The translations under genes were made by a program, and so were the position numbers. Shown here piece after piece: positions 8,754-52,108 of a stretch of 64,000 nt of DNA; the first letter of the stretch is position 1; each line of letters starts with the position of its first letter. This DNA is from Verrucomicrobiota bacterium (GTDB taxonomy: Bacteria > Verrucomicrobiota > Verrucomicrobiia > Chthoniobacterales > UBA10450). Under the pieces are notes generated by a model that worked only from the letters and a program-made list of their open reading frames with translations, did not search any database and was not told the origin of the DNA. The stretch is taken from NCBI GenBank assembly GCA_003218375.1, contig QHNH01000021.1:1-64000 (forward strand), given 5' to 3'.

Positions 8754-9265
8754 AGGGACGCGAGGTGGATGTTGATGTTGGTCGCCGCAGCGTGGCGGAC
8801 ATCCAGGTCGCGGCGAAGGGAAGGGCTGAACGTGTGCTAATAAAGATTCGTCCCCCGTGGCGAAAACGGATGCCTCCGCCGGAGTCGCGAAGCAGCCAGC
8901 GCAGGTCGCGGCAAGCGGCCCTGCCCGAGTTGCTTACGAAAGGGTAACCGCTTTTCTTTTTTTTGACGCGGTTTCGTGGAAAGCCGGACGCTTCGGCGGC
9001 GCGCCCTCCTTCGCTGGAAAAATCCGAAAGCGAACTCCTCTTCTGGAGGTGGAGACTCTAAGCGCGATTACCTCATTTCGCCATCGCGAGGTCGCGCATC
9101 CAAACCACAACGATGTAGCGGCGGTCGCCGCGGCGACCGCAGAACGAATCGCGACTCGCCGTCGAACCGCGACCTGCTTTCAGATTGATCGCCCAAGCCA
9201 TCGTGTGATACTGGATGAGTCAATGCTTTCTCCCCTTCCGATCTCCATCCATTTCCTCAATCCCG
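8754..9265. other. Long intergenic region upstream of the sialidase-like gene
   Basis: About 510 bp with no convincing gene. It must hold the promoter of the minus-strand gene at 5175-8753. It contains a short G/C palindrome near 9118-9140 (GGCGGTCGCCGCGGCGACCGC) and a T-rich stretch near 8953-8965. A long open frame over 8857-9300 has no recognisable domain and looks like chance in high-GC DNA. The right end runs into an attC-like half site. Confidence 0.5.
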
Positions 9266-9302
9266 AGTTAGGCGAAACTTTTTCGTCTAATTCTCGTTAG
9301 GC
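9266..9302 (+). other. attC-like right half-site opening cassette cluster 1
   Basis: A 10-bp hairpin (TTAGGCGAAA / TTTCGTCTAA) is followed by AATTCTC and the core GTTAGGC at 9296-9302. The same hairpin-plus-core block recurs at 47884-47920 in the second cluster. The end of the cassette beginning here is GCCTAAC at 9560, the exact complement of its start, as expected for an integron cassette. Confidence 0.6.
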
Positions 9303-9559: not shown

Positions 9560-9753
9560 GCCTAACCATGCGTATGCAGCGAACGGCTGCCCGCTGCGCG
9601 ACCATATTCCCAATGATTCATACACTTCCACTTCGGTTGGCGCTCGCTCCCGGTAGCCGTGGCTGATTTTATTGATGAACTCACGCGACTCGTTCAACCT
9701 CCGGTCTTGAAGTCTATGCCACGGCTTGCCAGTCCGTTTCATTCTCGTTAGGC
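9560..9753 (+). other. attC-like recombination site (divergent, 194 bp)
   Basis: Begins GCCTAACCATGCG (9560), continues AGCGAACGGCTGCCCGC and ends CATTCTCGTTAGGC (9747-9753). The left end matches the first 13 bases of the sites at 46406 and 49257 and, apart from the cassette-specific core, that at 45604. The right end shares TTCTCGTTAGGC with 45604-45726 and 46406-46598. The internal part is unlike the others, so stem pairing is weaker. Confidence 0.6.
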
Positions 9754-10146: not shown

Positions 10147-10527
10147 ATGCTGCGCATTTTGATACTCATCACTCTCGTCACGGTTGGCGAATTAGCGGCG
10201 GAACAGATTCCGCTGTCCTCGGCGAAGAACTGGGAAGTTCGTGGCGCGGCCGGAAAGATCACGTGGGTCGAGCTTCATAATATTGATCCGTCCGATTCCG
10301 CCGTGATTCACGTCGAGGTACTCAGCCGTAAGAAGACTGACGATCCATCGGAGGTTAAGCATCTGCAGGCGCATGTTGCGATAACAGTTGAGGCTCTCCA
10401 GCGAAGCGTGGTTCGACCCCTTCGCGACAAACGGGGGGTCTATCCAGAATCATTCGACTATGGCTACAAACATTGGAAAGAAGAAGATGCCGCTGGGAAG
10501 CGCGTTGTCTGCACAACAAGAGAATGA
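10147..10527 (+). CDS. Secreted hypothetical protein on cassette
   Basis: 126 aa. MLRILILITLVTVGELAAEQ is a signal peptide, so the product is exported. The mature part is hydrophilic with a run of alternating strands (GKITWVELHNID, SAVIHVEVLSR) and a C-terminal YPESFDYGYKHWKEEDAAG segment. I do not recognise the family. It lies between the degenerate site at 10034-10068 and the GTTAGGC core at 10594, in the cluster's common orientation. The last residues after HWKEEDAAG could reflect a small frame change, but this cannot be judged without homologues. Confidence 0.55.
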   Translation: MLRILILITLVTVGELAAEQIPLSSAKNWEVRGAAGKITWVELHNIDPSDSAVIHVEVLSRKKTDDPSEVKHLQAHVAITVEALQRSVVRPLRDKRGVYPESFDYGYKHWKEEDAAGKRVVCTTRE

Positions 10528-10593
10528 GGGAGGAAGGATTAGAGATGAAAGGAAAGCGGAGATCGCTCGCACTGTTAAACCGATCGTGTTTTC

Positions 10594-10600
10594 GTTAGGC
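10594..10600 (+). other. GTTAGGC cassette core
   Basis: TTTTCGTTAGGC two bases before the start codon of the DUF5069 gene. The left half of a full site is not clear upstream. Confidence 0.45.
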
Positions 10601-10601
10601 T

Positions 10602-11045
10602 ATGACGCCGCTTGATCTTACCCATGGGCCTCCCCGATCTCCGAGAGAAGAGCTGTGCGAGGTGTGCATGTTGCCGCGGATGATCGACATCGCCCGCGCG
10701 AAACTTCCTGGAGGCGATGTGGGACAGTACCAGATCGGCCGGGGGATGAGCGGACTGGTTCTTAGCGCGTTCGGTTTGAGCGCGGAGCGCTTCGTCGAGA
10801 TGGTGCGGGATGCTGGCACCGACGCGGACGTGGCGATGGCGCTAGGACGGAGAGTTGCGGTGGCGCGGAGAGCGGTCGGCGCGCGGTTGGGCCGTGTTAC
10901 GGTGGCGGACGTGCCGGCGGATTTGAAGGAATCGTTTCAACAGTTCTATGGCGCCGACCTTCCTTCGGATCGACTTGTGTTTGATGTCCTGGAAGCCGAC
11001 GATCGGAAGATGTTTCCCGACCACAAAGCCAAAGAGGCGAGTTAA
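10602..11045 (+). CDS. DUF5069 domain protein
   Basis: 147 aa. The N-terminal motif LTHGPPRSPREELCEVCMLPRMIDIARAKLPGG (key parts PRSPRE, LPRMIDIARAKL) and GQYQ match DUF5069 proteins, a short family of unknown function common in Verrucomicrobiota and Planctomycetota. Length fits. The rest is helical, with FGLSAERFVEMVRDAGTDADV and a C-terminal KESFQQFYGADLPSDRLVF. The ATG follows the GTTAGGC core by a single base, and the stop is followed by GCCTGAACCATG, a version of the attC left end with one extra base. It therefore appears to be a cassette gene. Function unknown; cytosolic by sequence. Confidence 0.75.
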   Translation: MTPLDLTHGPPRSPREELCEVCMLPRMIDIARAKLPGGDVGQYQIGRGMSGLVLSAFGLSAERFVEMVRDAGTDADVAMALGRRVAVARRAVGARLGRVTVADVPADLKESFQQFYGADLPSDRLVFDVLEADDRKMFPDHKAKEAS

Positions 11046-11054
11046 GCCTGAACC

Positions 11055-11339
11055 ATGAGCTTCATCCGCTATTTCATCTCCATCGTGGCCGGCGCGCTGG
11101 CGGCATCGGCTCTCGGCGGAGTCTTTGCCTGCGTGGTGGCGCTGATCTCGCCGGAATTTGTCAGCACATTGTTTGGCCATGGCACGCAAGGGTCGCTGGT
11201 TCGTTATGCGGCGGGGGTCGGGATGATTTGGGGATTGTTCCTCGGGACGGCGGCGATGGGGTTTTGTTTGTTGTTGGTGACGCTGGTCCAGGTCGCGCGC
11301 ATCATCAGGAAGAAGAGCGACGCGCAAAATCCTTCCTGA
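11055..11339 (+). CDS. Small membrane protein
   Basis: 94 aa with three hydrophobic stretches: about 5-30 (YFISIVAGALAASALGGVFA), 28-45 (CVVALISPEFVSTLF) and 55-82 (VGMIWGLFLGTAAMGFCLLL). The tail is basic (IIRKKSDAQ). Not recognised. Its ATG lies inside the GCCTGAACCATG string that resembles an attC left end, and GTTAGGC at 11353-11359 follows the stop by 13 bases, so it may occupy the last cassette of the cluster. Beyond it the housekeeping gene coaE begins. Confidence 0.55.
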   Translation: MSFIRYFISIVAGALAASALGGVFACVVALISPEFVSTLFGHGTQGSLVRYAAGVGMIWGLFLGTAAMGFCLLLVTLVQVARIIRKKSDAQNPS

Positions 11340-11352
11340 TCCCTTCGGTGTC

Positions 11353-11359
11353 GTTAGGC
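11353..11359 (+). other. GTTAGGC core closing cassette cluster 1
   Basis: GGTGTCGTTAGGC after the last small gene of the cluster. No further attC-like sequence occurs before coaE at 11443. Confidence 0.4.
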
Positions 11360-11442
11360 CGGCGGATGTGCTCAGCTCGATAATTCGGATTGGTGTTTGG
11401 CAGACAAAGCGGAAGAGGTAGAGGAAGACGTGATCTGAATCA

Positions 11443-12054
11443 ATGCCAGCAATTGGGATAACGGGTGGGATTTCCACCGGGAAAACGAGCTTCATGGTCT
11501 GCTTGCGCCAACTGGTACAGGATGCGCGTTTTTTTGATGCGGACGTTACGGCCCGTGAGCTGGCGGACCGCGATCCGGAGGTGAGGGGACTTATCGAGAA
11601 GGAGTTCGGGCCGGAAGTTTATTCTGCGAGCGGGGACTTGAACCGGGAGGCAGTTCGCACCATAGTGTTCGCCGACGCGGAAAAGAAACGCGCGCTGGAG
11701 CAAATCCTGCATCCGCGCATCCGCCGTCAGTGGAGCCTCGAAGCCGAAAGCCATCGCAACTCCGCGGAACTTTTTTTTGCTGATATCCCACTTCTTTATG
11801 AAACCGGCGGTGAAACCCTGTGCGATCGGGTCGTGGTCGTGGCTTGTTCGCCCGGGCTGCAACTCGAGCGGCTCTTGGCGCGGACGGCGCTCGGAAAAGG
11901 GGAGGCGCAACAAATGATCGATGCCCAGATGCCGCTGACGCAGAAGATGAGCCGAGCCGACCACGTGGTTTGGAATAATGGCGGGCACGACGTGCTCAAG
12001 GAGCAGGCGCGGTTGCTGGTGGAATTTTGGAGGGATGGACGGCACGTCCCATGA
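11443..12054 (+). CDS. coaE: Dephospho-CoA kinase
   Basis: 203 aa, last step of coenzyme A synthesis: ATP-dependent phosphorylation of the ribose 3'-OH of dephospho-CoA, in the cytosol. The P-loop is GITGGISTGKTSF (residues 4-16), slightly unusual where many CoaE have GSGKS. DADVTARELADRDPEV (about 29-44) matches the substrate-site D-A-D segment, LEQILHPRIRRQW the conserved HP-R motif, ADIPLLYETGGE the 'P-L-L-E' motif and VVVACSPGLQLERL the core beta strand. Rho follows 42 bp downstream on the same strand, so they may share a transcript. The last residues (about WRDGRHVP) and the stop codon are encoded by a dispersed palindromic repeat at 12027-12084. Confidence 0.92.
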   Translation: MPAIGITGGISTGKTSFMVCLRQLVQDARFFDADVTARELADRDPEVRGLIEKEFGPEVYSASGDLNREAVRTIVFADAEKKRALEQILHPRIRRQWSLEAESHRNSAELFFADIPLLYETGGETLCDRVVVVACSPGLQLERLLARTALGKGEAQQMIDAQMPLTQKMSRADHVVWNNGGHDVLKEQARLLVEFWRDGRHVP

Positions 12055-15723: not shown

Positions 15724-18700
15724 ATGAAAAGACTTTTGCTATTCGCGGGCGGGGCACTGGGGTGCATGGCGCTGGATGTCGTTTCGGCCAGGGCGCAGGG
15801 CGGGACGGGTAACGTGCTGAAAGAAGCGCGCGTCACCCAGGTGGTGAAAGATGTAAAATTGCTTTCGGGTCAGGCCGAGCCGCGGCCGGCCACGCTGAGC
15901 GATACGGTGCGCGGCGACACCGCCGTCCGGACCGGGGCCGAGTCGCGCGCGGAATTGACCTTCGGCGATCTGACCATCGCGCGATTGGGCGCGAATACGA
16001 TTTTCAGTTTCAACCAGGGCTCGCGGACGGTAGACCTGCGCGACGGCGCGATCCTGTTGCGTGTCCCGAAAGGTTCAGGCGGCGCGAAGATCAACACGGC
16101 CGCCGTCACGGCCGCGATCACGGGCACCACCGTCATCGCGGAATATCATCCGAAATCGTACGCCAAGTATCTCGTCCTGGAGGGGACCATGCGGATCTAC
16201 CTCAAGGGCGTCCTGGGCGAATCGGTCCTGATGGGGCCGGGCCAGATGATGATCCTCAATCCGAATGCAACTCGCCTTTCCGAGCCCGTGGATTTCGATT
16301 TGGAACGGCTCTGGAAGACGTCGCTTTTCAATCTGGGTTTTGCCCGGCCACTCCAGAGCGAACCGTTATTGGCCGACGTCCAGCACGTGCAGCTGGAGAA
16401 AAAAACAGCGGGCGAACTAATCGACACCAACCTGGTGATCTTCGGGCGCGGCACCTTGGTCACGATGACCGACCCGCAATCGTCCGACGTGATCGATCGC
16501 AAAACCGCCGCGGTGACGTTGCCGACGCCCACCGCCACGCCTACGGCTACTCCAACGGCGACGCCCACCGCCACGCCAACCGCGACCCCCACCGCGACGC
16601 CGACGCCGAAACCCACGCCGAGTAAATTCGGCACGCCACCGCCAATCGTGACGTCGGTTCCGTATCCGATTGACAACGGCACCACGATCCAGACCGATCC
16701 CGCGATCACGCGCGGCGGCGTGACTGACTTCGGAAAAATCTATCGTGATGCGGCGCAGGACGGACCATTCTCGGCCTGGGCCTTCACCGCGACTTCACCG
16801 TTCGACAGCACAGCCGGTATCGACTCGCTTTATGGCGGAAACGTTCCTGTAGCAGCGTTCAAGTTCACGGCCCTCCAGCTTGTCGGCAATCCCACGATCT
16901 CCACGGCGAATGGTGGTGCGACTAATCTCGCGCTCATCTCAGTGGGCGCGATGACTTCAGCGCCGGCGGGGAACACGGTGTTCACTTTTGCCGGCATGCA
17001 AAGTGTGCTGCTCGCGACGCAAAATGGGACGATCAATTTGGGGGGGGGTTTTAGTTTTCGAGACATTCCGCTTCTCATCTTTTATGCACGCGGCGCCACC
17101 TCGAATCTCATTCTAGGGGCACCCATCGACGGTGTCTCATCGCTGCGGCTCATTTCGGAAACCGGCATGTTTCTTAACGCGGCGGAAACCGTATCGAATG
17201 GCTCCAACGGCGGCACAGTCCAAGGCATCGCCGGAGGGGAGCTCCATGTGAATGGTCCGATTGAAACGGTGACGCGCCTGGTGCCGGATTCGCCGCTAAC
17301 TTTCTCTGGAGCGGGAGGCCTTGTTTCGCTTTCCGCTCGGGGCGGAACCCTCACGGTCAATTCGCGCATTCAGGTCTCGTTCAATGATCCCGCGGCGGGA
17401 GCGCCCGCCCTGGTTCGCCGGAGTGCGAGCGGCGGCGTGATTGGCCTCGACAGCGGCTTGACGACAGGCACCGGCCTCACGTTAATTTCGACCGCGAGCT
17501 TACTCTCGCTGTTGAATGACGGCGCCCCAGGCCCTGGCGGCAGCATTAGCTTGACGACTCCCGGAAGCGACATCGTCACCAACGGCGCGACCATTCAAGC
17601 GGACCGCGGCACGATCACCATCCAGCAAAGCGCAGCGCCGCCTTCTGGCACCGCGCAGATCACCCTGAACGGCGGCGCGATTAGCAGCGAGACGCTGTTT
17701 GTTTCCTCGCGAGGCGATCTCACGATCGGGACGACTTTGCCGGTGAACCTTTCCGCTGTTACGCTTTCCTTGCTCGCGACGAGAAACCTATCGTGGAGCG
17801 GTGGAACGCTGGTATCAACCGCGAGCGCGTCTTCCGGGAATGCGACCTTGCGGGCCGGAAATGATATTTCGATCACGGGTCGGGTCGATATTGAGCGCTC
17901 AAACGGCGGGATTACCGACGGCCTGAATCTGGTGGTCGATGCCGGTCGCAATCTCCAGGCTAACGGGGTCGGATTTTTCCTCATCACGAACGGCAGCGGC
18001 CTGACCAGCGGAGGAAACATCACTCTCGCATCGGGCGGGACGATGACTCTGGCTGGGAATGCCAGACTTTTTACCGGTGTTTTCTCGGCAAACCAAACCA
18101 ATGGAAGCAACATCGCGATAAGTGCCGGCGGTCTGATCACGACCGAGAATTTGTGGGACCTGGTCCAGGTCTTCGGTCGGACCCTCGAGAATGGGGGGAA
18201 TATCACCATGACGGGTAACGGGTCGTATTTGGCGACTTTCGATGGACTTCAGCTCGATGTCTTTACTTCGGATTTCGCTGATCCAGCCGGCGCCATCACC
18301 ACCGGTGGAAACATCGCACTGACAATAAACGGAAGCCTCACTACCGCGTCGACGGGCACTTTTCAGCTGGCGGTACATAATTCAAACGGCGGCCGGATTC
18401 AAACTGGCGCAAATATCAACTCGACCATCGGCGGCAACGTGACCGCCAACGTGATCAATGTGCAGATCGATAACGCAGCCGGCGGCTTTATCGGCACCGG
18501 AGCGGGCGTGACCTTTACGGTTGCCGGTACGCTCACGACCAACAAAGACGTGGGCGATGCTAACTTTACGATTCTCAACAGCCGCTCCGGCACGTTCGGC
18601 GGCACGATCGGCTCGGATGCATTCATCAAGGTGACTTTGGCAGACACGAATATTGCACGCGATCTGAATGCTTTCATCGACAACGTCAACGGCACGATCG

Positions 18701-44249: not shown

Positions 44250-45119
44250 ATGAAACCAGGATTTTTCACTCACACCATCGCGGTCCTCGTTTCGTCCGTC
44301 ACGGCGTTCTTCACCCACGCCGCGCCCGGCGCCGTGCCGCCTTCGAAAATCAAGCTGAGCAAGAAATCGAATGCGCCCAAGGACGACAGCTTGTTGAAGC
44401 TCGATCCGATCTCTTACTCGCCCGCACCGAACAGCGCTCCGCCGTTCAACCAGGTGGCCGAGCGTTACCCGTGGAAAAAAGAAATCGTCACCACGGTTTT
44501 CTGGATTGGCGAGAAACCGAGCGCGAACAATCCCGTGCCGAACCGCTCCAGCTCCTGGGACGCAAACTGGACCAGGAACTACGGCGGCTTCGACGATCCC
44601 GCGAAATCGCACCGGCACGATTTCATCCCGGCCAAGTTCACGCCGAAGCAGAACCCGTTTTATTGTGCGCTGCCTTATAACGACAAGTCGGCGAACGGCC
44701 ACCGGCCCGAAGCGCCGCGGGTGGTGCCTTGGTTCAAGGAAGCGTATCAAGGCCCCGGCGTCTCCACTTGCAAAGGACGCTGGATCGCGATCCGGAAAGG
44801 GAACAAGGTCGCCTACGCCCAATGGGAAGACGCCGGCCCCTTCCGGACCGATCACTGGCAGTACGTCTTCGGCAACGAACGCCCGAAACCGAACCTGAAC
44901 AAGGGCGCCGGCCTCGATGTTTCACCGGCGGTGCGCGATTTCCTCGGCATCAACGAGACCGACGTGACCGACTGGAAATTCGTCGACTTCAGCGAAGTCC
45001 CGCCCGGCCCCTGGTCGAAGCTCGGTGACAACAACACCTTCGTCATCAACGCCAAGAAAGCCGAGAAGACCCTCGTCGAAGGCCCCAAGCCCGGCGGCAC
45101 CGTCACCGTTCTGCCTTAG
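44250..45119 (+). CDS. Secreted double-psi-barrel-like protein
   Basis: 289 aa. Signal peptide MKPGFFTHTIAVLVSSVTAFFTHAAPG. The mature protein is basic and includes a Cys pair region: FYCALPYNDKS ... GVSTCKGRWIAIRKGN, and then VAYAQWEDAGPFRTDHWQYVFGNERPKPNLNKGAGLDVSPAVRDFLGI, shown by parts AQWEDAGPFRTD and GLDVSPAVRDFL. The 'W-x-D-x-GPF...D...GLD-x-SPA' layout recalls double-psi beta-barrels of RlpA/expansin-like proteins, which often bind cell-wall glycans. I am not sure of the family; the two cysteines probably form a disulfide. No operon. Confidence 0.55.
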   Translation: MKPGFFTHTIAVLVSSVTAFFTHAAPGAVPPSKIKLSKKSNAPKDDSLLKLDPISYSPAPNSAPPFNQVAERYPWKKEIVTTVFWIGEKPSANNPVPNRSSSWDANWTRNYGGFDDPAKSHRHDFIPAKFTPKQNPFYCALPYNDKSANGHRPEAPRVVPWFKEAYQGPGVSTCKGRWIAIRKGNKVAYAQWEDAGPFRTDHWQYVFGNERPKPNLNKGAGLDVSPAVRDFLGINETDVTDWKFVDFSEVPPGPWSKLGDNNTFVINAKKAEKTLVEGPKPGGTVTVLP

Positions 45120-45170
45120 CGTGGTTCAAGTTCTCCCCCATGATTGCGCCCTTCTTCAACCGTGATAGAT

Positions 45171-45222
45171 GGAAAAATCCCGCCTTTAAATGCGGAATTT
45201 TCCGGTCTACTTCTCGTTAGAT
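45171..45222 (+). other. attC-like right half opening cassette cluster 2
   Basis: Hairpin GGAAAAATCCCGC / GCGGAATTTTCC with one extra base in the left arm, then CTTCTCGTTAGAT (core 45216-45222). GTTAGAT is matched at the other end of the cassette by ATCTAAC (45604-45610). Confidence 0.6.
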
Positions 45223-45224
45223 CT

Positions 45225-45596
45225 ATGCGTGTGGCAGTCCTTCTCGCGTTGCTCACGTTGTCGGCGACAGCTGCTGCGTCCGATTCACCATTCGAGCCTC
45301 CGATCTCCAAAGCTGACACCGCCGAAATCAAGCGTGTTCTAGGCGCCGTCACTCGGAAGCCGATTCTTCTTATCATGGCCGCCACCCGCGAGAAGCCCTT
45401 CGCCGGGGCCGTCATCCGATACGAATATCTACTGAATGTAGAGACCGGCAAGCAGACGCCTGTACCGCAGTATCTTCGCCGCGATCTCGTCTACGTTTAC
45501 ATGCACTACACGGATCGATCGCATGTGGATGTTTACACCGTTCGCAAGGTGCGCGGTCGTTGGAAGGTCGAAGAGAAAAAAGATTGGTTCATATGA
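45225..45596 (+). CDS. Secreted hypothetical protein, cassette gene
   Basis: 123 aa from the ATG at 45225, two bases after the GTTAGAT core; upstream open frame ignored because it precedes the cassette. MRVAVLLALLTLSATAAA is a signal peptide. The mature protein has DTAEIKRVLGAVTRKPILLIMAATREKPF, showing ILLIMAATREKPF, and YVYMHYTDRSHVDVYTVRKVRGRWKVEEKKDWF, a strand-rich C-terminus ending in basic and aromatic residues. Family not recognised. Stop codon falls eight bases before the attC-like ATCTAAC, which is typical of cassette ORFs. Location in the periplasm or outside is inferred. Confidence 0.65.
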   Translation: MRVAVLLALLTLSATAAASDSPFEPPISKADTAEIKRVLGAVTRKPILLIMAATREKPFAGAVIRYEYLLNVETGKQTPVPQYLRRDLVYVYMHYTDRSHVDVYTVRKVRGRWKVEEKKDWFI

Positions 45597-45603
45597 TTCA
45601 AAG

Positions 45604-45726
45604 ATCTAACCATGCGATGGAGCGAACGGCGGACCGCTGCGCGTTCACATTTGAGATGACTTCCAACCCTTCATTCCGAGCGACGCACGGTCTCGTCCGC
45701 CGTCGCTCATCTTATTCTCGTTAGGC
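45604..45726 (+). other. attC-like recombination site A (123 bp)
   Basis: ATCTAAC (45604) at the left, GTTAGGC (45720-45726) at the right. Internal arms GAGCGAACGGCGGAC and GTCCGCCGTCGCTC pair except for one unpaired A in the left arm, i.e. an extrahelical base as in integron attC sites. Then ATCTTATTCTC before the right core. Same length as site C. Confidence 0.7.
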
Positions 45727-45736
45727 CTACACCACT

Positions 45737-45931
45737 ATGAACGATGAAGATATACGAGAGGCTATTCGCCTGATAAACGAAGTCTTTGCAATGCTCGATA
45801 TTCTCGCAGCACGTCGCACGGCGACAGATGAGTTCCAGCACGCTGCGAGGCGCTTTTCTGAAATTCGCGCACAGCTCGCGGTGCTGTCAGCCCGCGGCAG
45901 CGCCAACACACGCTCAACTCCAGCCATTTAG
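45737..45931 (+). CDS. Small helical hypothetical protein, cassette gene
   Basis: 64 aa, not recognised. It starts 10 bases after the GTTAGGC core. Entirely helical and amphipathic: MNDEDIREAIRLINEVFAML then DILAARRTATDEFQHAARRFSEIRAQL. Charged and without a signal, so cytosolic. The next gene begins six bases later, so the two form a small operon inside one cassette. Confidence 0.55.
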   Translation: MNDEDIREAIRLINEVFAMLDILAARRTATDEFQHAARRFSEIRAQLAVLSARGSANTRSTPAI

Positions 45932-45937
45932 CCTCGC

Positions 45938-46405
45938 ATGAAACGATGTCTCATCACCGCTGTGGCTGGTCTTGCCGTTTTTGCGAGTTTCGCTCAGCCC
46001 GCCTTTGCCCAGGCGGCACAGACTGTGATGCGGATGCTCAGCAAGGAAGTGGCACGCGCACTGTCAGATCGGAGCGAGTCAATCGATAAGGCCTTGGTCG
46101 ACGCATCAGCGAAGATGAATGCCCATCTGCCGATGCAGCTGGACAAAGACACTCGTCTAGACACGACTCTTGCTGGGCCAGGAAACCGGCTGACGTATTC
46201 GTACACGCTCATAAACCTGTCGGCCGAGGACGGAGACGGAGACATCGTGAGTAGGGTAATGCGTCCGATTATTCTCAACGGCTACAAGACCGATCCGCAG
46301 TTTGCCGTGTTTCGCGAGCACCGAACAGAGATGCATCTTGTCTACCGCGATAAGGACGGCAAATTTGTTACTCGTATCATAATTTCACCGAACGATCTCC
46401 AATAG
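45938..46405 (+). CDS. Secreted hypothetical protein, cassette gene
   Basis: 155 aa. Signal peptide MKRCLITAVAGLAVFASFAQPAFAQA. The mature part has helices ending in RALSDRSESIDKALVDASAKM, then KDTRLDTTLAGPGNRLTYSYTLIN and VFREHRTEMHLVYRDKDGKFVTRI (beta hairpin near the C-terminus). I do not recognise the family. The stop TAG is immediately followed by GCCTAAC of site B. A periplasmic location is inferred from the signal. Confidence 0.65.
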   Translation: MKRCLITAVAGLAVFASFAQPAFAQAAQTVMRMLSKEVARALSDRSESIDKALVDASAKMNAHLPMQLDKDTRLDTTLAGPGNRLTYSYTLINLSAEDGDGDIVSRVMRPIILNGYKTDPQFAVFREHRTEMHLVYRDKDGKFVTRIIISPNDLQ

Positions 46406-46598
46406 GCCTAACCATGCGATGGAGCGAACGGCGGACCGCCGTACGCTCCACTTTTGAGATGACTTCCACACTTCGATTCCGAGCGACGCGCGTTGATTCG
46501 CATTGCCCAATGCTCACCCTGCGGGCTAGGGTCCATGTCGCGCCGCTTTCCGCGAGCTCCATTCTCGTCCGCCGTCGCTCATCTTATTCTCGTTAGGC
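46406..46598 (+). other. attC-like recombination site B (193 bp)
   Basis: GCCTAAC (46406) with the same left arm GAGCGAACGGCGGACCGC and right arm GTCCGCCGTCGCTC as site A, ending TTATTCTCGTTAGGC (46592-46598). Compared with sites A and C it has about 70 extra bases in the loop, including GCATTGCCCAATGC and CCTGCGGGCTAGGG. Confidence 0.65.
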
Positions 46599-46705
46599 GT
46601 TAAGGAGCCAAGAGGGTCGGTCTTTAAATCTCGGCATTCGCTGAAGATTTTTTCGAACTTCGGGCCGGCAAACGCCGTAGTATCTTAGTGAAGGGCTGAT
46701 ATTTT

Positions 46706-47020
46706 CAAGCCAAGTCCCCGCCAAACCAAGCCGAGTCCCTCCAAGACCAAGCCAAAATGCCCCCAGAACAAGCCAGGAGTTTCCCGTTTCAGGCCAAGAG
46801 TGCGCCAGGTTCACTGAGTTCCGCGCCGTTCTGGGCAAGTCGCGGGCGAGTTGACCAGGTTTTGAGGCGAGTTGGCCAAGTCGCGACGCGCTTTGGCCAG
46901 GAAATCGGCGATCCCGGCCGAGCCGGGCGATTTTTCACCGAAATTTTAACGGTTCCGGGCAGGTTTTCGATCCTCCAAGCCAGGTTTGCTGATTTCCCGG
47001 CCAGAAAAATCAATCCTCAC
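46706..47020 (+). repeat. Phased array of fifteen 21-bp degenerate units (array 1)
   Basis: Fifteen units of exactly 21 bases without a single indel, e.g. CAAGCCAAGTCCCCGCCAAAC, CAAGCCGAGTCCCTCCAAGAC, GGCCAAGTCGCGACGCGCTTT, GCCAGGTTTGCTGATTTCCCG. Only the first half of each unit is conserved (C-A/G-A-G-C-C-A/G-A-G-T like); the second half is nearly free. Both strands stay open as seven-residue repeats, but no codon-like constraint is seen. The array ends 90 bp before the GTG of the Fn3 gene. Not a tandem repeat of identical copies, and no known family fits. Confidence 0.8.
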
Positions 47021-47110
47021 CCGGCGAACACCGCGCTCCCGCCCTCTTCCGCGGCTGCCCGAACCCCCCTTTAACCCGATGCAGTTAACCCCAAAGAAAG
47101 GCAGAACAAA

Positions 47111-47722
47111 GTGAAGCTAAAAACAGGCTATTCCGACTTGACCCCAACCGAGGGGGTGGACCTGGGCAACACGGTCAAACTTAATATGACCGGCAAACCA
47201 ATTTGGAGCGGGCTCGCCTCGCTCCTTACGCAGTTGCCTCTCGACATAGCGGCAGTGACCACAGCCATGTCCGCAACCGGACCGGGCGCGGCGGCGCAGT
47301 TAGCCGCGGCCGACGACGCGCTCTCGATCACCCTCGGCAATCTCGCCGATGGCGCGAACAAGACCGCGAACGTGACCGATGCCGACCTCGCCGGCACCGG
47401 TTTCCCACAGGTAAAACAACGCGTCCAGCTGACCGAGCCGCCGCCGGCCCCGCAGAACCTGCGGTTGCGCCACGGGCAAATGCCCGGAAGCGTCGACGGC
47501 GCCGTCGATCCGATCCCGGGGGGCAACATCCGCAGTTACGAAGGCCAATGGGCGCTGGATGCCAACAGCGGTCCCTGGAGCGACACCCTCACGTTCCCTA
47601 ACTCGCGTGCGTTGAGGTTCACCGATCTCGCCCGCGGGAAAGACACCTGGTTCCGGATCCGCGCCCGGAACACGATCGGCGCCGGCCCGTGGAGCGATCC
47701 GGCCACGATCATGGTGACGTAA
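47111..47722 (+). CDS. Fibronectin type III-like hypothetical protein
   Basis: 203 aa starting at GTG 47111. N-terminal part (1-100) is helical and Ala/Thr-rich with LTQLPLDIAAVTTAMSATG and AQLAAADDALSITLGNLADGANKTANV. C-terminal part (about 112-203) is an Fn3 domain: PPPAPQNLRLRHGQMPGSVDGAVDP, then RSYEGQWALDANSGPWSDTLTF and ARGKDTWFRIRARNTIGAGPWSDPATI (the G-x-G-P-W-S-x-P ending is typical). No signal peptide. A 21-bp repeat array precedes it and a GC-rich hairpin follows. Proteins of this plan occur in several Bacteroidota and Verrucomicrobiota without known function. Confidence 0.7.
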   Translation: MKLKTGYSDLTPTEGVDLGNTVKLNMTGKPIWSGLASLLTQLPLDIAAVTTAMSATGPGAAAQLAAADDALSITLGNLADGANKTANVTDADLAGTGFPQVKQRVQLTEPPPAPQNLRLRHGQMPGSVDGAVDPIPGGNIRSYEGQWALDANSGPWSDTLTFPNSRALRFTDLARGKDTWFRIRARNTIGAGPWSDPATIMVT

Positions 47723-47738
47723 TTTCTGTTCAGCAAAG

Positions 47739-47777
47739 CCCGGCGGCGCGCCGTCCCGCGCTGGAAGCGCCGCCGGG
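47739..47777. terminator. GC hairpin after the Fn3 gene
   Basis: CCCGGCGGCGC (47739-47749) and GCGCCGCCGGG (47767-47777), an 11-bp perfect stem with a 17-base loop, 17 bp after the stop codon. No T-tract, so a terminator or an mRNA stabiliser. Confidence 0.5.
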
Positions 47778-47883
47778 TGAGCTGGCCATTCCGGCTTGTG
47801 ATTGCGAGGTGTCTGAGCCAGGATCATGGGGATGTTTCCCCATTTGTCGTCTTTTCCAGCCGCTTCCCAGGAGCACAGCCGAA

Positions 47884-47920
47884 ATAGGCGAAACTTCGTT
47901 TCGTCTAATTGTAGTTCGGC
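47884..47920 (+). other. attC-like right half-site with GTTCGGC core
   Basis: TAGGCGAAAC/GTTTCGTCTA hairpin as at 9266, then AATTGTAGTTCGGC (core 47914-47920). Its cassette ends with GCCGAAC at 48781, the exact complement. Confidence 0.6.
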
Positions 47921-48029
47921 CGCAACAAACAGCTGGAGCGGATGGCTTGCTTTGCGGCTGAAAAAGTAGTGCAATCGGAGCCCGAGGGTAGGAGCCGGCC
48001 GTGAACGACCCACTTCCGGATTTCACGAT

Positions 48030-48722
48030 ATGAGTCTCATCTCCGTAATCAGCACACTCGTGTGCATGGTGATCTGCATGCGATGCGCAACTACCTTTCT
48101 CTTGCACAACGCGGCGCTTTTCACCGCGCTCGCACTATTTGCGCTTACCTGGGGGTTGGTGCTGACGTATTACACCTCAGCCACGCCAGCGCCGGAGTGG
48201 CTTTCGGCGTTTGGAGCCTTTCTCACTGTGTATTCCGCTGCCATAGTCGTTCGCAGCGTCAAGGGGACGAACGCGAAGGTGAGCGCCGTCGAGTGGTGCT
48301 CGTTATGGCTTCTCGGGTTGGTCATTACAGGTCTGTCGGTTCCTTTCTTGCACATACCACCTGAGAGGACATCAGTTCTTGTAGCAACGTGTCTTTACGC
48401 CATCGGCGATATCGCCATCGCCTGGGCAATTTACCGAATCGCCCGCCGATGGGTCTTCTATTCAATCGTACCACTGTTTCTGCTCTACTTTGGATTCGAG
48501 ATCCAGTACGCGTATCGCTACTGGACACTCGGAGCGCACCAGGCAATGACACCGACGATGCCGTTGGCATTCGGCGTATGCAAGATTCTCGTGACAATTG
48601 GCTACGTGACTCCCGTTGTGGTGAGTGGACTGTCGTCTAGCGATAGCGAACTGAGGTGGTGGCAATTGATCCTCGTCTTCGCGGGATTCCCGCGGGAGAC
48701 GGTGAAGCATGCGTCAGAGTAG
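48030..48722 (+). CDS. Multi-pass membrane protein, cassette gene
   Basis: 230 aa, not recognised. Six or seven hydrophobic helices: about 1-20, 28-48 (LFTALALFALTWGLVLTYY), 58-72, 90-105, 118-135, 143-160 and 175-195, with few charged loops. It fills the cassette between the GTTCGGC core at 47914 and the GCCGAAC of site C at 48781, in the common orientation. The C-terminus (RETVKHASE) is polar. No catalytic motif seen. Confidence 0.65.
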   Translation: MSLISVISTLVCMVICMRCATTFLLHNAALFTALALFALTWGLVLTYYTSATPAPEWLSAFGAFLTVYSAAIVVRSVKGTNAKVSAVEWCSLWLLGLVITGLSVPFLHIPPERTSVLVATCLYAIGDIAIAWAIYRIARRWVFYSIVPLFLLYFGFEIQYAYRYWTLGAHQAMTPTMPLAFGVCKILVTIGYVTPVVVSGLSSSDSELRWWQLILVFAGFPRETVKHASE

Positions 48723-48780
48723 GGCCGGGCGGGCATGCGAAGGGGCGGATTTCCGTGGAGGACAATTTGCGTAGTGGCGC

Positions 48781-48903
48781 GCCGAACAATGCGATGGAGC
48801 GAACGGCGGACGGCTGTGCGTCCACATTCGAGATGACTTCCACACTGCCACTCCGAGTCAAGCGCGGTCTCGTCCGCCGTCGCTCATCTTATCCTCGTTA
48901 GGC
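48781..48903 (+). other. attC-like recombination site C (123 bp)
   Basis: GCCGAACAATGCGATGG at the left; arm GAGCGAACGGCGGAC with the same extra A, matched by GTCCGCCGTCGCTC; right end TTATCCTCGTTAGGC (48897-48903). Exactly as long as site A; apart from the cores the two differ at a modest number of positions. Confidence 0.7.
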
Positions 48904-48929
48904 GTCATGCCGCCCCGCTGGCAACGACC

Positions 48930-49262
48930 ATGAGTCCTTCAGTAACAGCCGTCGACACCGCAATCAATATAGCCGCCAACACGCTGACGGTGATTGTCTC
49001 AGCTATCGTGCTCTGGAGACTCGTCGTTCGCCTTCGCCGGAAGAGGCAGGGCCGAGCAGCGCGTCCAAAGCCGAGACCACGGTCAGGCGGTGGGATCGCT
49101 ACGCTACGGAGGGCATTGGACAGCATTATCGTCGCTTCGCTAGCGGCCCTCGGCGCTCTTAGTGCTCCCTCATCACGCGCACCTTGGATCGGTTACATCG
49201 TCATTCCGGTTGTGTTGTTCTTATATGTATGGATCATCGTCTCACGTGCCAATGACGCCTAA
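48930..49262 (+). CDS. Small membrane protein, cassette gene
   Basis: 110 aa. A helix at about 8-29 (VDTAINIAANTLTVIVSAIVLW), a basic linker RLVVRLRRKRQGRAARPKPRP, and helices at about 64-80 and 85-105 (IIVASLAALGALS, WIGYIVIPVVLFLYVWIIV). Not recognised. Its stop codon TAA is part of the GCCTAAC at 49257-49263 that ends the cassette. Confidence 0.6.
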   Translation: MSPSVTAVDTAINIAANTLTVIVSAIVLWRLVVRLRRKRQGRAARPKPRPRSGGGIATLRRALDSIIVASLAALGALSAPSSRAPWIGYIVIPVVLFLYVWIIVSRANDA

Positions 49263-49280
49263 CCATGCGATGGCGACATC
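49257..49280 (+). other. Truncated attC-like left end
   Basis: GCCTAACCATGCGATGG is the left end of a site of the A-C type but the rest is missing; the cassette cluster stops here. Confidence 0.5.
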
Positions 49281-49548: not shown

Positions 49549-51108
49549 TCAGAACAATTCGGGATGATCGTCGGTGACGGGCTGGGGGCCGATGATGGAG
49601 CGGATCTTGGCGAGGAGATCGTTGAAGTCGTAGGGCTTTTGGATGGTATCGATGACGCCGGCCTTCAACATTTCGGAGCGAATGGCGGGTTCGAGGTAGC
49701 CGCTCGCGACGATGGCCCGGACGCCGGGTTTGCTCTCTTTCATTTTTAGGAAAGCTTCGCGGCCGCCTAACCGCGGCAGGCCGAGATCGCACACGACCAG
49801 GCCGATCTCGTCGCTGTGCGATTCAAAGAGCGCGACTGCTTCGACGCCGTCTTTCGCGGCGAGGACGCGGAAGCCTTCGCTTTGCAACATGGAAACGCCG
49901 AGCTCGCGCAGCATCTCTTCGTCTTCGACGAGCAGGATCGTTTGGGGGATGTCCTGCCGCGGCGCGCCGGTCCGATCCCCGCCGAGCTGTTCAGCGGCGA
50001 GGTGTTTGACCGGCAAATAAATAATGAAGCTCGTGCCGGCGCCGGGCTCGCTCTCGACCTGGACGAAACCGCGATGGTTGTTGACGACGCCGTAAACAAC
50101 CGAGAGCCCGAGACCAGTTCCCTTGCTTCGTTCCTTCGTAGTGAAGAACGGCTCGAAGATATGGGACTTCACCTGTCGGGTCATGCCGATGCCGGTGTCA
50201 CGCACCCGAATGCAGGCGTAACTATCCGCGGTCACGCCGCTGAACATCTCGGTGAGGTCCGGGCCCGGGGTGATGGAAGTGGCGAGGGTGAGGGTGCCGC
50301 CGGCGGGCATGGCGTCGCGCGCGTTCACGCAAAGGTTCAGGAGCACCTGGTGGATCTGACTTTTGTCCGCGGTAATGAGCGGCAGGTCGGGCGCGAGCTC
50401 GAGGTGGAAGCTGATCGTCTTGGGAAAAGTCGCCTGCAACATGCTCTCCAGCTCGCGCACGAGTGCGTTGAGATCGACCGAGGAAAAGCGCGCCTCGGTC
50501 TGGCGCGCGGAGGTGAGCAGTTGCTGGACGAGCGCCGCGCCGCGCTCGACGGCTTCCTTGATGACTTTGATCGCCCCCGGGAACTCGTTCGGTTTCGAGT
50601 GGGAACTCTCGAGCTTGTTCGTGTAGCCGAGAATGATCGCGAGGATGTTGTTGAAGTCGTGCGCGATGCCGCCGGCCAGCGTTCCGAGCCCTTCCATCTT
50701 CTGCGCCTGGACAAGCTGCTGCTCGAGGCGTTTCCGTTTCGTGTCGTTGAAAAGATAAACGTGCAGCTCGGTCAGCTCGCCGTTCGCGAAATTCCCGATA
50801 AGGCGCGTGACTACATAAACCGGATCGCCATTTCGCTGTGTCATCTCGAGTTCGTGCCGGTCGACCATCCCGTGCTGGCGCACGGTCTCGAGCAATTCGA
50901 TGCCGTCCTGCCGGTTGCGGAGAAAGGCGAAGAAATTCGCGGACATCGCTTCTTCGACTGAATCAAAACCAAAGATGCCGGCGACGGCGGGATTGCAGGT
51001 GACGATCTGGCCGTCCGTGCGCATCACGAGCATGCCCGTGAAATCCTCGGTGACGAAGCGCCGGTAACGCTCGTCCGTTTCGCCCAGCGGGTTCGGTCGA
51101 TCTTCCAT
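49549..51108 (-). CDS. Hybrid histidine kinase (PAS, HisKA, HATPase, C-terminal receiver)
   Basis: 519 aa from the ATG at 51108 (MEDRPNPLGETDERYRRFVT), which overlaps the stop of the preceding small gene by one base. PAS (about 12-125, FTGMLVMRTDGQIVTCNPAV), kinase core with His in GGIAHDFNNILAII (about 155-168), ATP-binding NARDAMPAGG and DTGIGM, FFTTKERSKGTGLGLSVVYG, then a receiver (about 395-510) with DDE-type start LLVEDEEMLREL and Asp in VVCDLGLPRLGG. No membrane helix and no HTH output, so it works as a phosphorelay member in the cytosol. It is cotranscribed with the 90-aa membrane protein upstream. Confidence 0.9.
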   Translation of the reverse strand: MEDRPNPLGETDERYRRFVTEDFTGMLVMRTDGQIVTCNPAVAGIFGFDSVEEAMSANFFAFLRNRQDGIELLETVRQHGMVDRHELEMTQRNGDPVYVVTRLIGNFANGELTELHVYLFNDTKRKRLEQQLVQAQKMEGLGTLAGGIAHDFNNILAIILGYTNKLESSHSKPNEFPGAIKVIKEAVERGAALVQQLLTSARQTEARFSSVDLNALVRELESMLQATFPKTISFHLELAPDLPLITADKSQIHQVLLNLCVNARDAMPAGGTLTLATSITPGPDLTEMFSGVTADSYACIRVRDTGIGMTRQVKSHIFEPFFTTKERSKGTGLGLSVVYGVVNNHRGFVQVESEPGAGTSFIIYLPVKHLAAEQLGGDRTGAPRQDIPQTILLVEDEEMLRELGVSMLQSEGFRVLAAKDGVEAVALFESHSDEIGLVVCDLGLPRLGGREAFLKMKESKPGVRAIVASGYLEPAIRSEMLKAGVIDTIQKPYDFNDLLAKIRSIIGPQPVTDDHPELF

Positions 51109-51380
51109 CAGGGCGCGCGCGAAACAGGTGTGGCGGTCGGTCGCGGCTCGTTCCGGGAGCGGAATTCGTCGAGCCCGCCGGAGTAGAAAACGTAATAGAA
51201 CGCGAGGACGGCGCCGATGAGGACGGCGAAGAGGAAGATGAAACTCGCCAGGCGAAAGGCGCGGTAAGGAGAACGGGCCCGGAGGCGCGCGGCGCGTTGT
51301 TGCGCCAGCTCCAGCTCGACGAGGCGCAGGAGCTGTTCCGGATCGGACGGTTCGTTCTTGCCGTTGCCGTGGGGATTCAT
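51108..51380 (-). CDS. Small single-helix membrane protein
   Basis: 90 aa. A charged helix (about 15-40, EQLLRLVELELAQQRAARLRA) is followed by one transmembrane helix (about 45-68, LASFIFLFAVLIGAVLAFYYV) and a short polar tail. Its stop (TGA) overlaps the ATG of the hybrid kinase by one base, a clear sign of translational coupling. The kinase it precedes has no membrane helix of its own, so this protein may anchor or sense for it. Family not recognised. Confidence 0.65.
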   Translation of the reverse strand: MNPHGNGKNEPSDPEQLLRLVELELAQQRAARLRARSPYRAFRLASFIFLFAVLIGAVLAFYYVFYSGGLDEFRSRNEPRPTATPVSRAP

Positions 51381-51415
51381 CGAGAAAGAATCTTAACCAA
51401 TCGACCGAAACACAA

Positions 51416-52108
51416 ATGGATTCTGAATCTACGACGCCGACGCTAAGAAAGCTCGTTGCTTTCACGCTGCCGATGGCGGTATTCCTGACGCTGTTGGGCC
51501 TGGCGGGTGTGGTGCGAAAACCGGGAGCCGGTCCCTGGCTCGAGTCGCCGGAGTATTGGATTTATCCGGCGCAAACGTTGATCTGCGGCGCGCTCGTTAT
51601 TTGGTTCCGGCGTGAATACGAACTGCGCGCGCCGCGGAAAGTCTGGTTTGCGATCGTCGTCGGCACTGTGGTCTTCGTGGTCTGGATCGCGCCGCAACAA
51701 TTCCTCGGTTTCGCACCGAGGCTGACTGGTTTTGACCCGGATGTATTCAGTGGCAGGCCGGCAGTGTATTGGGGAACGGTAGCATTGCGTTTCGCGCGGC
51801 TGGTTGTTGTCGTGCCGTTGGTGGAGGAGATTTTCTGGCGCGGCTTTCTCCTGCGCTACCTGATCAACGAGCGGTTCACCACGATCGCCACCGGCACGTT
51901 CTCCTGGGTTTCGTTCGCGCTTGTCACGTTCGGCTTCGGGTTTGCCCATTCGCGGGCCGACTGGATTCCGGCTTTGATCTGCGGCGCGCTCTATAATCTC
52001 GTCGCTTATCGGACCCGCAGCCTTGCCTCCTGCGTCGTTGCCCATGCGCTCACGAATCTCCTGCTTGGCCTCTGGATCATGCAGACCCGGCAATGGGGAT
52101 TTTGGTGA
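51416..52108 (+). CDS. CPBP-family intramembrane protease (CAAX-type)
   Basis: 230 aa, seven or so membrane helices. CPBP/Abi signatures: VVVPLVEEIFWRGFLLRYLI (EExxxR, about 133-152), FGFGFAHSRADW (FxxxH, about 174-185), and C-terminal VVAHALTNLLLGLW (HxxxN, about 207-220). Similar proteins are called CAAX prenyl protease-related and are found with exosortase in PEP-CTERM organisms. No prenyl substrates are expected in bacteria. Starts 36 bp away from the divergent 90-aa membrane gene, with a shared promoter region. Confidence 0.85.
   Translation: MDSESTTPTLRKLVAFTLPMAVFLTLLGLAGVVRKPGAGPWLESPEYWIYPAQTLICGALVIWFRREYELRAPRKVWFAIVVGTVVFVVWIAPQQFLGFAPRLTGFDPDVFSGRPAVYWGTVALRFARLVVVVPLVEEIFWRGFLLRYLINERFTTIATGTFSWVSFALVTFGFGFAHSRADWIPALICGALYNLVAYRTRSLASCVVAHALTNLLLGLWIMQTRQWGFW

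Follow-up and report, generated by a model that had tools for sequence, protein, structure and literature searches.

The integron integrase IntI acts on attC sites in the form of their folded bottom strand, which it recombines with attI; where IntI is missing, cassettes are frozen in place. Integrons have already been described in Verrucomicrobiota, as have three routes that lead to clusters of attC sites lacking integrase (CALINs) (PMC8618304). In Treponema phagedenis, attC sites are retained at a syntenic locus without intI, and a layout with co-directional intI is also known from Treponema (PMC3607928). In the open-access literature, we found nothing on integrons in Udaeobacter, Chthoniobacter or Spartobacteria.

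We analyzed a stretch of 64,000 nucleotides (the window) from a 97.8% complete metagenome-assembled genome (MAG) of the Chthoniobacterales. A locus between two convergent genes is well supported as a CALIN: as originally predicted, it has at least two attC sites and no neighbouring intI. It probably derives from a chromosomal integron whose intI was lost, an already known kind of element. With the Xanthomonas CALINs (PMC12444791), it shares the presence of at least two attC sites without nearby intI, a conserved chromosomal position and the inactivation of platforms in sister species, but here attI-like heads are kept, the genome has at least 16 such heads and about 40 attC sites, and the phylum is Verrucomicrobiota. 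As in the T. phagedenis remnant (PMC3607928), an attC array has lost its intI at a locus that is syntenic with the intact integron of relatives. In Treponema there is a single type of integron, whose intI is co-directional (PMC3607928), whereas the family studied here has both co-directional (in one clade) and divergent intI. Sedentary chromosomal integrons are similar in attC structure, in the IntI family (TIGR02249), in the attI beside intI (here in relatives) and in cassette genes mostly without known function, but they form one long array rather than many small arrays across the genome. The locus documents how integrons are gained, spread and decay in a soil lineage that is abundant and for the most part uncultured.

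The original prediction had placed three sites with common arms, site A at 45604-45726, site B at 46406-46598 and site C at 48781-48903, and these coordinates proved exact to the base; all three lie on the plus strand. They share an identical L'' arm of 23 nt. This 23-mer (ATGCGATGGAGCGAACGGCGGAC) occurs exactly 3 times in the window, whereas 100 dinucleotide-shuffled versions contain no copy even when 3 mismatches are allowed. The RYYYAAC (R'') and GTTRRRY (R') ends fit in A and B; site C has the variant R'' GCCGAAC, paired with the start core GTTCGGC of the same cassette. Site B contains about 70 nt extra, placed in the variable terminal part. When 33 sites from the host genome and its relatives were aligned end to end, 96.3% of the cells in the R''-R' plus L''-L' stem were paired, with double-sided changes in 12 of 24 pairs. 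The covariation score was 0.377, compared with 0.131 ± 0.012 for shuffled data, and slid controls collapsed. The invariant A23 in L'' faces no base in the 33 sites, as expected for an extrahelical base.

A search with a home-made covariance model, the kind of check that had been proposed, recovered A (127 bits, model R1; stems covary), B (108 bits) and C (115 bits) together with a fourth site in the window (9560-9680, plus strand; 64.8 bits, E 1.1e-17), which belongs to another cassette run and has a degraded R' end. Genome-wide, the host has 40 matches, 16 of which were included in the training set. Because the model was partly trained on these sites, the scores of A and C are not independent; those of the site at 9560, outside the training set, and of some others are. 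An Rfam scan of the window at the gathering threshold returned tRNA and SRP RNA only, and no attC match. A truncated attC on the plus strand (49258-49275; family D4) consists of the start only (GCCTAACCATGCGATGG...) and ends after about 18 nt. To judge from their sequence, A, B and C are attC sites of the integron type and would be recombined by IntI.

Start and end cores of cassettes agreed in 31 of 36 cases from the host genome and its relatives, compared with a permutation mean of 9.4 and a maximum of 20 in 10,000. A simple cause was apparent for two of the five exceptions, namely the window's third pair, with an attI-like head in between, and 16989-17801 of a relative's locus (L131), with an intervening attC that has the core GTCAGGC. 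All three core pairs predicted for the window are present (GTTAGAT 45216 and ATCTAAC 45604; GTTAGGC 45720 and GCCTAAC 46406; GTTCGGC 47914 and GCCGAAC 48781), but the third pair holds only from the start at 47914 and not from the end of site B. We found a fourth pair (GTTAGGC 48897 and GCCTAAC 49258), which ends in the truncated attC. GTTAGGC is over-represented in the window, so that the worry voiced with the prediction, that the end matches could be due to chance, was fair; the wider test resolves it, as the observed 31 agreements lie above every permutation.

About 40 scattered stem-loop copies could also be expected from MITE- or REP-like repeats without any relation to integrons. Such repeats would not account for the core rule of cassettes, for the extrahelical base and the diverse ORFs between copies, or for the arrays directly beside IntI in relatives. 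The probability of this explanation is negligible, and it is refuted in practice by the core rule together with an array beside IntI in the relative palsa_1414.

The window's two cassette runs comprise four cassettes on the plus strand. Cassette 1 (45217-45720) has an ORF in frame at 45225-45596, and cassette 2 (45721-46592, core pair 2) has ORFs at 45737-45931 and 45938-46405. In the second run, cassette 3 (47915-48897) contains the ORF 48030-48722 and cassette 4 (48898-49264) the ORF 48930-49262. The proteins had no convincing Pfam or NCBIfam assignment: no match was found for cassettes 1, 3 and 4, and one weak match to a cassette gene was judged spurious. Environmental cassettes usually lack family assignments. 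The segment between the two runs (46599-47876), which consists of a degenerate C/A-rich stretch and an FN3-like ORF (47111-47722), is not bounded as a cassette, and the third cassette therefore starts at 47914. The FN3-like ORF has two weak paralogs on another contig (C42).

Both cassette runs open with an attI-like hairpin that the original prediction had missed. Head 1 (45158-45222, plus strand) ends in the core GTTAGAT (45216-45222), and head 2 (47877-47920, plus strand), a short form, ends in the core GTTCGGC (47914-47920). The hairpin has the form TTAGACGAAAA...TTTTCGTCTAATTCTCGTTAGRY. In relatives, the same element, with a core of the GTTRRRY type, sits between an intact intI and the first cassette; the heads of the window directly precede the first cassette and have no intI beside them. 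Positions 45157-45227, around head 1, align over 71 nt with the attI of a relative (G022) at 84.5% identity, and that attI adjoins an intact, divergent intI. Head 2 scored 14.9 bits (E 0.022) against model R2, and its positions 47879-47920 align locally to 9263-9302 with a score of 48, whereas 200 shuffled versions of the region reached 24 at most. The latter positions belong to the short-form head of another cassette run in the window (9259-9302, plus strand), and since head 2 copies this head, the cassette start at 47914 is independently supported. A head model built from 20 sequences, 11 of them from the host genome, matched 16 places in this genome after removal of mirror hits, 5 of them outside the training set; in the genus, each of the seven further genomes yielded 4-14 matches.

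The heads bear on the question of how the cassettes came to lie without an integrase. A distant IntI could have placed them off target at non-attI sites (attG type), which is a known route to CALINs (PMC8618304, route i) and would agree with the many contigs that carry cassette runs. However, insertion at an attG site would not bring an attI-like hairpin, and such a hairpin opens both runs of the window, which makes off-target insertion very improbable. More generally, arrays without intI can retain attI, and this helps to separate intI loss from off-target insertion.

A TIGR02249 profile search of the host genome found nothing above the cut-off of 265. The search for IntI elsewhere in the genome, as had been advised, returned only a relic on contig C32 and two recombinases on C3 and C40 that are Xer-like, judged from sequence. 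The relic matches 44 N-terminal positions of TIGR02249 with 42.9 bits; it covers the first ~45 IntI residues (C32:2337-2468; L006:2204-2470, G000:C32) and ends before rlmN. It is divergent from the adjoining attI-like head and cassettes, which form a second integrase-less array of the host genome. At the CALIN in the window, we detected no remnant of intI. An intact intI beside attI, the mark of a complete integron, is absent from the host assembly and present in palsa_1414. As the MAG is 97.8% complete and arrays reach contig ends, intI could be absent from the assembly only.

Of 83 genomes of the family, 33 carry an IntI above the cut-off. Integrases that are co-directional with the cassettes group in a single clade (support 100/99), separate from the divergent ones. 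Examples of the two layouts are L051, L052, L057 and L061 (co-directional, with attI at the 3' end of intI) against L039, L041, L048 and L049 (divergent). In one further locus (L060, G009:C84:402-1475), intI has an attI-like core in the same direction about 140 nt upstream, as if intI occupied the position expected for the first cassette.

The flanks of the window locus allow its history to be compared between relatives. The left gene (44250-45119, plus strand) encodes a conserved protein of undefined function, and the right gene (49549-51465, minus strand; convergent with the left one) a histidine kinase/response regulator. In eight relatives (L132, L133, L134, L136, L139, L160, L182 and L183) they are direct neighbours, about 20-230 bp apart, which means that about 4.4 kb were inserted in the window genome. 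The closest named relative, palsa_1414 (L131), shares the left gene, but there it precedes an intact IntI (10398-11456, 352 aa; 466 bits for TIGR02249), attI and a long attC array, so that the window represents the integrase-less state of this site. Empty, intact and integrase-less states have thus been seen for one locus. The palsa_1414 array also contains an IS1595-type transposase (L131:13879-14835), right after an attC start that breaks off.

The palsa_1414 attI differs in type from head 1 of the window, and its intI is co-directional; the best match of head 1 belongs to a divergent intI. The window array and the palsa_1414 integron may not be the same integron, and because of the difference in attI type we infer loss of intI without claiming descent from one integron. 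The retained heads, the complete integron that a sister species has at this locus and the many arrays in the genome together argue for intI loss rather than off-target insertion. By this reasoning, an ancestor would have had intI at the exact locus of the window and lost it by deletion. Through attC x attI recombination, IntI would once have put circular cassettes into the attI-like heads; its cut in the GTTRRRY core, after the G and before the TT, would give cassettes with matching cores. The intI between the gene 44250-45119 and the head would later have been deleted. The cassettes would now be static, unless IntI is supplied in trans or sits in the unassembled few percent of the genome.

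Alternatively, the genus might keep many attI platforms dispersed around the chromosome, two of them in the window, all filled in trans by one or two IntI, which in the host genome were lost or are unassembled. In the genus, each of the 8 genomes has 4-21 matches to the attI model but only 0-3 strong intI hits; in two of them (G024 and G026) heads are present and a strong intI hit is absent, and a head on contig C21 of the host (C21:56283) is nearly identical to the C32 attI. Nevertheless, attI lies beside intI in intact loci, and decayed intI pieces adjoin heads in relatives (G023 C54 and C43; G022 C4), as many decaying integrons would predict. We consider platforms served in trans unlikely, and prefer loss of a local intI.

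The core of the attC and attI sites, the 9-mer TCGTTAGGC, is of interest beyond the CALIN itself, as is the history of the locus. In 1.07 Mb of related DNA it was the top over-represented 9-mer (133 seen, 4.0 expected from a third-order Markov model), and it also ranked first in the window, which has 14 copies, with 0.3 expected. Single-base variants were near background. Copy numbers per genome range from background level up to 4605 in 4.3 Mb (G042), with equal strands; the host genome has 459 copies, compared with 82 for the reversed word. In loci rich in TCGTTAGGC, 104 perfect and 62 one-off copies were counted, versus 0-1 and 17-47 for control words. Hundreds to thousands of copies, strand balance and an excess of perfect over one-off copies are the marks of the DNA-uptake sequences known from Pasteurellaceae and Neisseriaceae (PMC1626085), and by these marks TCGTTAGGC looks like a putative DNA-uptake word. 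The open literature yielded no uptake sequence for Verrucomicrobia. A Chi- or KOPS-like role is unlikely, as both strands are used equally within single loci.

A sample of 126 genomes drawn from 12 further families of the order contained none that was enriched in TCGTTAGGC, and strong IntI hits were found in seven of these families. The word is therefore not explained as an integron by-product, particularly as the cores GTTAGAC and GTTAGAT are not enriched. All seven TCGTTAGGC-rich genomes have an intact intI, but five of them belong to one genus and the association with intI is therefore weak. Among the matches listed, the few attC sites concerned (L041, L043 and L062) had no preference for a GGC core. 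An enrichment of TCTCGTTAGRY (82 against 8) was considered as a trace of scattered attI/attC remnants and rejected: most of the solitary sites lie in long ORFs, have no flank similarity and belong to the genome-wide 9-mer.

A random 9-mer would contain CGTTAGGC with a chance near 1e-4; identity of TCGTTAGGC with the integron core is in that sense unlikely to be coincidence a priori, although this is argued after the fact. On the other hand, integrons of these genomes also use GTTAGAC and GTTAGAT, neither of which is enriched, and GTTAGGT, which is enriched only slightly. If functional, the match would link transformation to cassette capture. It is conceivable, if rather doubtful, that the core TCG|TTAGGC doubles as a putative DNA-uptake word in the family, either with transformation favouring cassettes or with the word recruited from the core, while an unrelated word, TGTCGATCT, might fill the role in sister genera. 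This second word is enriched there, with up to 4941 copies in 2.9 Mb. It is found in genomes such as G037, G044-G047 and G001-G005, and G037 has both TCGTTAGGC and TGTCGATCT.
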